Shown in pieces: positions 4,484 through 29,947 of a stretch of 64,000 nt of DNA; positions within the stretch are counted from its first letter, which is position 1, and every line of letters starts with the position of its first letter. The notes under the pieces are model-generated. The model made no database searches. It was not told the origin of the DNA and saw only the letters and a program-made list of their open reading frames with translations. Source of the stretch: Rhodobacterales bacterium (GTDB taxonomy: Bacteria; Pseudomonadota; Alphaproteobacteria; Rhodobacterales; Rhodobacteraceae); NCBI GenBank assembly GCA_026400355.1, contig JAPLPE010000021.1:62001-126000 (forward strand), given 5' to 3'. A program made the translations under genes and the position numbers.

Positions 4484-6571
<2,088 letters not shown>

Positions 6572-27690: not shown

Positions 27691-27857
27691 GATCTGCCCC
27701 CTGCCGTGCTGACCAGTACCGAAAGCAGTCATGAGGTCAACCCGCCCCGATGCTGCAGCATTGCTGATCTGCATCAGTGCCCGGCACGCCAGTACAGACG
27801 ATACTGCAGACATGGACCCCTGCCGGGGCCCGCAACCGCCATTTGGAGGCACGCAGA

Positions 27858-28031
27858 TTGGACAAGGATCGCATCGAAGGTTCGGCGAAAGTCGTCAAGG
27901 GCAAGGTCGAGACAGCCGTCGGCAAGATCATCGGCGATGCCAAGCTTGTGGCCGAAGGCCATGCCGATCAGGTTGAAGGGAAGCTGCAGAACGCCATCGG
28001 CGGCATCAAGGACACGATCCAGGGCAACTAG
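27858..28031 (+). CDS. CsbD-family stress protein
   Basis: A 57-aa CsbD protein: LDKDRIEGSAKVVKGKVETAVGKI, then AEGHADQVEGKLQNAIGGIKD. The KGKVE and ADQVEGKLQNAIG repeats define the family, whose members are induced by general stress but have no known biochemical role. The start is a TTG 8 bases after a strong GGAGG. An in-frame ATG lies 27 codons upstream but has no homology. It is followed by DUF3309 and is divergent from the MOSC gene. Confidence 0.82.
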   Translation: MDKDRIEGSAKVVKGKVETAVGKIIGDAKLVAEGHADQVEGKLQNAIGGIKDTIQGN

Positions 28032-28091
28032 GCCCCGCCGCCGGGCGCGGCCTGCGTCCGATCCGCCCTCCTGTTCAAGGGACCACAGGCC

Positions 28092-28256
28092 ATGTCACTC
28101 GGCACCGTCCTTGTCATCATCCTGATCATCTTCCTTCTGGGGGGCTTTTCCGGTCGCTTTGGCGGCTATGGCTATGGCTTTGGCCACGGCGGCGTCAGCG
28201 TGATCGGGGTCATCCTGATCGTGGTTCTGATCCTCGTCCTGACCGGGCGGCTCTGA
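28092..28256 (+). CDS. DUF3309-family small membrane protein
   Basis: A 54-aa protein with two hydrophobic segments (LGTVLVIILIIFLLGG and VSVIGVILIVVLILVLTG) flanking a glycine/tyrosine/phenylalanine-rich loop (GRFGGYGYGFGHGG). This is the DUF3309 layout; family members are short, glycine-rich and membrane-bound, without known function. It follows csbD by 60 bp and is probably cotranscribed as a stress-related pair. It is shorter than the usual gene-calling cut-off. Confidence 0.75.
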   Translation: MSLGTVLVIILIIFLLGGFSGRFGGYGYGFGHGGVSVIGVILIVVLILVLTGRL

Positions 28257-28355
28257 CTTCGCCCCCGGTGCAGAAGACAACAAAGGGGAGGCGGCCTTCC
28301 GGTCACCTCCTCCGGCGTTCAGGCACAGGCCCGAAGACCACCACTCGCTGCGAAC

Positions 28356-29117
28356 TCAGGCAGCAAAGCGCTTGTCTGCGCGCTGCTCAGTACTTTGCAA
28401 AAGGAACAGCGCCTTCTTGGGCATGACAAAGCGGTAGCCAATACCGTAAAGCGTCTCGATCGCATCAAACTCGGGATCGATCGAACGGATCTTCTTGCGG
28501 ATCCGCTTGACGTGGCTGTCTATGGTGCGGTCATCGACAAAGATCGTGTCCGAATAGACTTCGGACATCAGCCGGTCCCGGTTCTTGACCACACCCGGAC
28601 GACGGGCAAGGCACATGAGCAGGTTGAACTCGGTCACGGTCAGTATGACCTGCTTTTCCTTCCAGATGACCTCGTGCCGGGTCGGGTCCATGGACAGGTC
28701 GCCAAGGGTGATCGCCTGTTCGAACCCGGTCTGGGTGTTAAGGCTCTCGGTCTGGTTGGTATGCCGACGCAACAGGCAGTTGATCCGTGCCGACAACAGC
28801 CGGGGCGAGACGGGCTTGTCGATATAGTCGTCGGCACCAAGGCGCAGGCACAGGATCTCGTCGATCTCGTCCTTTGCGGCACTCAGCATCACGACGGGCA
28901 CAGTCCATTTTTCCCGGATGCGCTCCAGAAGCGCCATCCCTTTGGCGTTCTGCCCCGATAGGTTGATCACCACCAGATCCGCCTTCCGCCGTTGAAATAC
29001 CGCGAGAGCAAAGTCACCATCACGGTGGCGTTCGACTTCATATCCCTCGCTCACAAGAAGTTCCCGTGCAGGATCAAGCTTGTCTTGCTGGTCGTCAATA
29101 AACGCGATCTTCGTCAT
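28356..29117 (-). CDS. OmpR/ChvI-type response regulator with Asn at the phospho-acceptor site
   Basis: A 253-aa protein with a receiver domain (about 1-120) and a winged-helix output domain (about 145-240). The output half, LTVTEFNLLMCLARRPGVVKNRDRLM...YVDDRTIDSHVKRIRKKI, is ChvI-like (in this protein the segment reads IFVDDRTIDSHV). The acidic pair Asp8-Asp9, the Ser of LSAAKD near 79, and Lys101 of IDKP are present, but the phospho-acceptor position reads VVINLSG, with Asn52 instead of Asp. It is thus an atypical receiver unlikely to be phosphorylated normally. No histidine kinase is adjacent. Start ATG at 29117. The large upstream gap carries repeated GGATA boxes that may be its operator (inference). 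Confidence 0.85.
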   Translation of the reverse strand: MTKIAFIDDQQDKLDPARELLVSEGYEVERHRDGDFALAVFQRRKADLVVINLSGQNAKGMALLERIREKWTVPVVMLSAAKDEIDEILCLRLGADDYIDKPVSPRLLSARINCLLRRHTNQTESLNTQTGFEQAITLGDLSMDPTRHEVIWKEKQVILTVTEFNLLMCLARRPGVVKNRDRLMSEVYSDTIFVDDRTIDSHVKRIRKKIRSIDPEFDAIETLYGIGYRFVMPKKALFLLQSTEQRADKRFAA

Positions 29118-29592
29118 TTTTGTTCCCCAAAGGGCAAGGCTTTGCATCTTTGACCGGGTCCGACGGGGTCACCGCCCTTTCGGCCTCCTGCCGCGCCCGG
29201 ACGTCTGGCTGATCGGTCTTGCGCGACACTTATGGGATATTGTTTCCATCCGGGATTGTCGCTTGCGGGACCGGATACCCTGCGGGAGGCAACGGATAGG
29301 TGTCGTGCGCAAACGGACCTTTCCGGCGCGTTCGTGCCGGATACTACCCCTTTTGGATAGGGTGCCTATCCGTCGGATTGCGGCCATCGGGCCCGGAAGC
29401 CGCCAACTTCCTTTGTCCGGCCTTTTCGCCGCCCAAGAATATTCGCAATCCTGCGACTCACCCCTGGTGACCGGCAGAACCGCAGCCGTAGAGGGTCACG
29501 GATCGAACGCACAAGACGTGCGAAGATCTTGCGGTCGCCGCGGCCCGAAGGCCGCCCGCAAGGGGGCCGCGCGATCGCAGCCCCGGAATGAC
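29118..29592. other. Large gene-free region between the response regulator and rplT
   Basis: No gene or RNA is recognised here. Its left part (29273-29372) holds GGATA at 29273, 29294, 29339 and 29355, and the inverted form at 29367, including a perfect GGATAGG-GTG-CCTATCC palindrome at 29355-29371. The right part (29520-29580) is GC-rich with hairpin potential around GCGGCCCGAAGGCCGC. Confidence 0.5.
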
Positions 29593-29623
29593 AAAGGCCC
29601 CGCGCATCACGCGCAGGGCCTTT
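29593..29623 (-). terminator. Terminator of rpmI-rplT
   Basis: A 13-position stem (AAAGGCCCCGCGC with GCGCAGGGCCTTT, one C/A mismatch) and a 5-base loop lie 25 bp after the rplT stop, with T residues on the minus-strand 3' side. Confidence 0.75.
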
Positions 29624-29647
29624 GCCTTGTCACCCTGGAAACCGGGG

Positions 29648-29947
29648 TCAGGCGGGCAGAGCAGCTTTGGCCTTGTGGGCGATCGCTTCGAATGCCGCCG
29701 GTTCGTTCACGGCCAGATCGGCCAGAACCTTGCGGTCCACTTCGATCCCGGCCAGCGACAGGCCGTTGATGAAGCGCGAATAGGTCAGCGATTCGTCGAC
29801 CATGCGGGTCGCATACTGGTTGGCCTTGTCGACCGCCTGCTTGGCGACCTTGAAGGTGCGGCGACGGTGATCATAATAGCCTTTTGCCGCGTCAAGGATC
29901 TTCTTGTGACGGCGATGGGTGACGGTACCACCTTTGGTGCGTGACAT
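29648..29947 (-). CDS. rplT: Ribosomal protein L20 with a 20-residue internal deletion
   Basis: A 99-aa L20, against 118 in E. coli. The N-terminus ([38 protein letters not shown], through residue 48) and the C-terminus ([28 protein letters not shown]) are highly conserved. Between them, only MVDE connects, whereas L20 normally has about 24 residues including the arginine-rich DRxxRKRxFRxLWIxRINAA segment that packs on 23S rRNA. The gap is in frame and equals 20 residues against E. coli. L20 is needed early in 50S assembly, so this is either a real shortened L20, a second copy elsewhere, or an assembly error. It follows rpmI by 12 bp. Confidence 0.85.

Follow-up and report, generated by a model that had tools for sequence, protein, structure and literature searches.

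Gene, protein and domains

In the window, i.e. the whole 64,000-nt stretch of DNA that was analysed, a gene on the minus strand encodes a response regulator whose product starts MTKIAFIDDQ. Conservation was scored at 109 near-invariant positions, defined as at least 97% constant in 117 canonical ChvI rows. These reference rows are each at least 62% identical to the ChvI of the same genome, and a few loci are present twice among them. The following features were assigned:

28356 to 29117, minus strand: gene for a ChvI-paralogue response regulator of 253 aa, with a pseudo-receiver (Asn52) and an OmpR-type DNA-binding domain
28782 to 29108, minus strand: pseudo-receiver domain, residues 4–112, with a Pfam Response_reg match and the catalytic set D-D-N-S-K
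28962 to 28964, minus strand: AAC codon for Asn52, the residue in the acceptor position, from sequence and alignment
28764 to 28871, minus strand: alpha4-beta5-alpha5 dimer face, residues 83–118, with 19 of 22 canonical near-invariants kept
28428 to 28655, minus strand: Trans_reg_C DNA-binding domain, residues 155–230 (Pfam)
29235 to 29371, no strand assigned: upstream cluster of six GGATA sites, among them GGATAGG-GTG-CCTATCC at 29355–29371

An alternative in-frame ATG at 29147 would yield a product of 263 aa; the start at 29117 is favoured by a GGGGA ahead of the ATG and by the alignment with ChvI. An initial annotation of this locus had described a ChvI-like response regulator with a normal output domain, in which Asn52 (in VVINLSG) occupies the acceptor position alongside Asp8, Asp9, Ser79, and Lys101. 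This description held in all parts. The protein is 51% identical over residues 1–231 to the canonical ChvI of its own genome, both domains were recognised by Pfam (Response_reg, PF00072, at 71.4 bits with a cut-off of 30.2; Trans_reg_C at 75.9 bits), sequence and alignment agreed on the catalytic residues, and 53 of the 56 near-invariants in residues 139–231, the DNA-binding domain, are kept. Against NCBIfam, none of the 25 models shown exceeded its cut-off. At acceptor +7, where canonical ChvI has Asp, the protein has Lys59, and a search of the beta3-alpha3 loop for a substitute Asp found none. GADDY is retained, and at its C-terminus the protein carries a tail of roughly 20 residues. In an AlphaFold2 model (12-row alignment, mean pLDDT 70.5) the receiver forms a complete (beta-alpha)5 fold, so that it is predicted to be intact, while parts of the DNA-binding domain, e.g. 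residues 175–198, are below a pLDDT of 50. The sequence identifies the gene as a paralogue of chvI that has diverged and encodes a pseudo-receiver.

The canonical ChvGI system and the gene neighbourhood

The genome also carries a canonical chvI (G000:C16) with the catalytic set D-D-D-T-K. Its neighbours encode PEP carboxykinase, HPr kinase (hprK), and a sensor kinase in which HisKA and HATPase_c domains are present (chvG). The window gene lies instead between rplT and DUF3309/csbD, outside the PEP carboxykinase/chvG/hprK setting of ChvI orthologues, and its D-D-N-S-K set departs from their DDDTK. As a normal chvI-chvG-hprK locus is present elsewhere in the genome, we concluded that the window gene is a paralogue and not the ChvI of the cell. 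The two proteins have both domains in common, and the recognition region RTIDSHxKRxRKK is kept. The window protein differs from ChvI in Asn52, in an altered acceptor loop and alpha1, in the C-terminal tail, and in the lack of an adjoining chvG. The PEP carboxykinase gene by the canonical chvI (L128 2705–4353, minus strand) is split into two overlapping ORFs of 363 and 187 aa, which looks like a frame break, either in the gene or in the assembly.

Within the 64-kb window, no histidine kinase was detected, either by tblastn with ChvG (no match at E≤1) or by a simple scan for H-box, N-box, and G-box motifs, in agreement with the earlier statement that none is nearby. The associated view of an orphan regulator under non-phosphorylation control stood in part: the usual Asp is absent and no kinase gene is near, but the gene is an additional copy in a genome that already has a normal ChvGI system. 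This makes modulation of that system likelier than a free-standing pathway.

The neighbouring stress genes csbD and DUF3309 were confirmed by Pfam. They adjoin the gene, as annotated, but are located on the opposite strand and run towards it, so that the arrangement is convergent and no operon is formed; moreover, the neighbours of the orthologue described below differ, comprising 1-Cys peroxiredoxin and universal stress protein (Usp) genes (L127 6787–11304). On the other side, the rplT-like ORF (29648–29947, minus strand) encodes only 99 aa, and its match to the L20 model falls into two parts; presumably, its middle is shortened compared to the usual L20.

The GGATA cluster spans 137 bp, 118–254 nt upstream of the gene start, and two of its sites make up an inverted repeat without mismatches (arms of 7 bp, spacer of 3 nt). 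The six sites compare with an expectation of 0.15 in 140 bp, given the frequency of GGATA in the window itself, and any other stretch of 140 bp in the window contains at most two. The repeated boxes noted earlier are thus real and above local chance, and the cluster is putatively operator-like. A tie to the window regulator, however, was not supported, and we rejected the boxes as the regulator's own operator: the 600 nt ahead of the orthologue contain no GGATA, and the palindrome, allowing up to 2 mismatches, is not enriched in the genome (11 per strand vs 14 for the reversed control). In the region 27700–29700, GGAAC-N16-18-GTT had a single match, overlapping the start of the window gene, and TTGC-N3-GCAA, described as a putative Caulobacter ChvI motif (PMC9731502), had none. 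A loose sigma70 pattern gave no match in 29100–29650.

Orthologue and distribution of the Asn type

The initial annotation had proposed aligning orthologues at Asn52, with Asp in all of them and Asn only here as the sign of a recent mutation. A single orthologue was found, in a genome of another genus (G391, locus L120). It is 55% identical to the window protein and likewise has Asn at the acceptor position, on the basis of which, as one orthologue, a private recent mutation was ruled out. Its catalytic set is D-N-N-S-L, the second acidic residue (Asp9) and Lys101 being lost. Among 114 aligned loci, 112 have DDDTK; the other two are the window protein and this orthologue.

In the family set of 394 genomes, one per genus, matches at E≤1e-74 occurred in 4 genomes, namely the window's own, G391, G072, and G173, the latter two with DDDTK. 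A DNA pattern of GADDY followed by PVSPRL/PVTPRL-like codons was present in 2 of the 394 genomes, the window's own and G391, while the reversed control of this pattern had no match in the listed rows for the same genomes. The type represented by the window protein is accordingly carried by only these two family genomes. The class was covered by 385 genomes; at E≤1e-70, G655 and G234 were the sole matches beyond the window's own, and both have DDDTK. No further orthologue was recovered from plasmids by tblastn, where all of the 5000 matches listed were below 60% identity, or from genome contigs, where the best 80 of 420 all had DDDTK with a top identity of 52%. In the genus searches, the genera of G000, G391, and G026 are represented by one genome each.

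Other ChvI duplicates

At E≤1e-36, 360 of the 394 family genomes matched, and two or more matches were listed in 30. We re-searched 35 genomes, namely six with a single weak match and those with two or more, except the window's own (29 of the 30). From these, 25 extra or weak ChvI-like copies were read, the window gene included, with 14 weaker places left out. The acceptor was Asn in 7 copies (L001, L120, L125, L126, L130, L135, and L143), Asp in 17, and unreadable in one (L141, broken at its start). The Asp group includes L137, which looks like a canonical ChvI truncated at the end of a contig, and two copies, L134 and L142, in which the acceptor Asp is kept and other catalytic residues are lost. 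Every readable acceptor other than Asp was therefore Asn (7/7); no other residue occurred. Among aspartate-less receivers (ALRs), Asn is given as 16%, the commonest replacement after Glu, in PMC4395418, and we claim no probability for 7/7 against 16%, since the copies share ancestry and one transition suffices to turn Asp into Asn.

Several copies were individually distinct. In L134 (G199), both acidic pocket residues are changed to His-Arg and the Lys to Gln while the acceptor Asp is kept, i.e. the pocket decayed without loss of Asp. L125 (G017, 4975–5662) has Asn inside an otherwise canonical LNIKMPRMDG loop, with the Thr and Lys regions rebuilt; here the receiver decayed by another route. 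In G026, the Asn-type copy (L126, 1770–11310) is located among three hybrid kinases with PAS, HisKA, HATPase_c, and receiver domains (Pfam), and that of G234 (L143, 3702–4223) adjoins a SelR-domain gene.

The window protein was grouped with ChvI-type regulators in both phylogenetic trees that were calculated. In the full tree (35 rows) it paired with G391a (95/83) inside a five-member group of window protein, G391a, G026, G391b, and G199 (91/95) next to canonical ChvI. In a reduced tree of 27 rows, from which eight mostly long rows had been removed, the pair (94/83) and the five-member clade (96/95) recurred; the branches of this clade are long, and its exact joint to canonical ChvI is unsure. 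Elsewhere in the full tree, G106 and G234 (both Asn) stood beside Asp-bearing copies and G017 (Asn) in yet another place, all three being long branches whose placement may be false. As G199 keeps Asp inside the clade, the distribution of Asn needs at least two changes on the 27-row tree. Either Asn was thus ancestral and later reverted to Asp, or it arose repeatedly.

Regional distribution of the changes

In OmpR-family regulators, the side formed by alpha1 and beta3-alpha3 docks the kinase, and alpha4-beta5-alpha5 is the dimer face. The window protein keeps only 12 of 30 near-invariants in residues 1–82, which contain the acceptor pocket and the kinase-docking side, compared to 72 of 78 in alpha4-beta5-alpha5 and the DNA-binding domain combined (Fisher p = 3.6e-8); the linker accounts for 0 of 1. 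For G391a the values are 13/30 and 65/78 (p = 7.7e-5). A regional split was also obtained for four further Asn copies (p from 0.0019 to 0.026) and for two degenerate Asp copies (p = 0.002 and 0.0064), and was absent from the G017 Asn copy L125 (p = 1). None of 14 Asp-bearing paralogues displayed a significant split, the lowest p being 0.18, with L137 (fragment) and L141 (broken) left out. All of these Fisher values serve as guides only, as positions in a protein are not independent.

In the window protein, losses among the near-invariants include N12, I13, S16, and V17 in alpha1 and D52, K54, M55, P56, R57, and D59 in the acceptor loop; in addition, T79 is changed to Ser and F103 to Val. The latter is the K+2 position, which was Phe in 34 of 34 canonical rows. 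In the seven Asn copies it is Val in three, Ile and Ala in one each, Phe in L125, and Tyr in L143, so that five of seven have Ala, Ile, or Val. According to a recent review, Ala, Ile, Leu, and Val at K+2 shift CheY towards active forms (PMC12632262).

Proposed role and alternative explanations

With odds that we put slightly above even, the pattern of kept and lost residues suggests a partner or competitor of ChvI that is uncoupled from kinases, biased towards the active state, and controlled by the amount made. By sequence, the gene is a duplicate of chvI in which the receiver turned into a pseudo-receiver; according to the model, neither ChvG nor any other kinase would switch it. Val at K+2 would bias the protein towards the active form, the kept alpha4-beta5-alpha5 face would allow it to dimerise with itself or with ChvI, and it would bind ChvI-type DNA sites. 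The level of synthesis and the partner may then set the effect, by which the ChvI envelope-stress response would be raised, lowered, or redirected. ChvI is put forward as heterodimer partner because the dimer face is kept, a surface to which this function is also assigned in PMC5965902. Both heterodimer formation and control by amount are named as possible pseudo-receiver modes in the same review (PMC12632262). Several observations count against this role: a G017 copy without regional split, Phe and Tyr at K+2 of L125 and L143, and no TTGC-N3-GCAA around the gene. Likewise, the retention of Asp8, Asp9, Ser79, and Lys101 counts against a complete loss of phosphate chemistry, for which they would be unneeded. 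The role further relies on an orthologue sample of n = 1. A broader reading, which we consider speculative and rather doubtful, is that chvI was repeatedly duplicated in this family into Asn-locked, kinase-blind subunits that would retain the dimer face and the DNA reader and pair with ChvI to form a coincidence detector; Asn might hold the receiver in an active-like state and hence be kept or reached again.

Different explanations were weighed against the role as partner or competitor of ChvI. Cys90 (alpha4) and Cys114 (alpha5) on the dimer face could couple oxidation to dimerisation, similar to Cys128 of RitR, an Asn-type pseudo-receiver with a Cys switch according to PMC4395418 and PMC5965902. 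The window protein has three Cys and 86 of the 117 canonical rows have none, and the orthologue near a 1-Cys peroxiredoxin gene and the Asn copy next to SelR fit such a redox switch. However, window protein and orthologue have no Cys position in common, a gain of two to seven Cys is also seen in Asp-bearing paralogues, and GADDY, lost in RitR, is kept. The redox switch was dropped as the main reading because the Cys are unconserved and were also gained by Asp-bearing paralogues, and we regard it as unlikely. A slightly smaller chance is given to a kinase decoy, which would bind ChvG without accepting phosphate and thereby damp ChvI phosphorylation. ChvG is encoded in the genome, and PMC12632262 considers competitors for binding possible, but the near-invariants of alpha1 are lost and a decoy would not need the upkeep of its DNA-binding domain.

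We consider it still less probable that phosphorylation persists in hidden form, with Asn52 deamidating to Asp or a nearby residue taking the phosphate, so that the regulator would still be switched. The four kept pocket residues and an Asn to Asp reversion cited for one receiver in PMC4395418 are consistent with this idea; against it, near-invariants are lost in alpha1 and the acceptor loop, the beta3-alpha3 loop offers no substitute Asp, and the orthologue lacks the second acidic residue and the Lys. A decaying pseudogene on its way out appears very improbable: the lost receiver near-invariants and the long branch in the trees would fit, but the frame is intact with a plausible ribosome site, an orthologue occurs in another genus, and the DNA-binding domain is well kept.

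Comparison with known pseudo-receivers

Like the aspartate-less receiver and pseudo-receiver (ALR/PsR) regulators, the window protein is an OmpR-family regulator without the acceptor Asp: PF00072 is recognised and the Asp is replaced, as in pseudo-receivers generally. It differs from them in being derived from ChvI and in keeping DD, Ser, Lys, and GADDY, while the G391 orthologue has lost DD2 and Lys. Pseudo-receivers are an already known kind, and a ChvI-derived lineage was not found in the open-licence literature searched by titles and the starts of abstracts. The mechanisms that switch bacterial pseudo-receivers were called a mystery in the 2025 review (PMC12632262). In the present case, a pseudo-receiver regulator and a working regulator of the parent type share one genome; the former has lost its phosphotransfer side but retains the surfaces for dimerisation and DNA binding. 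With a dead-receiver paralogue beside its parent, heterodimer formation with the parent versus competition for the parent's sites is directly testable.

RitR of Streptococcus pneumoniae resembles the window protein in its Asn acceptor and in having diverged from a canonical regulator (CovR). In contrast, RitR uses Cys128 and, according to PMC5965902, lost GADDY on moving to a Cys switch; the window protein retains GADDY, and its Cys positions are unconserved. With regard to the proposed mode, in which one regulator acts via another, the BldM-WhiI heterodimer may serve as precedent (PMC4125116), as may Brucella ovis, where CenR contacts EssR and works without its Asp (PMC10592609). For both pairs, the likeness concerns the proposed mode only, and the window protein would be an analogous case in which a regulator blind to its kinase acts through a partner.
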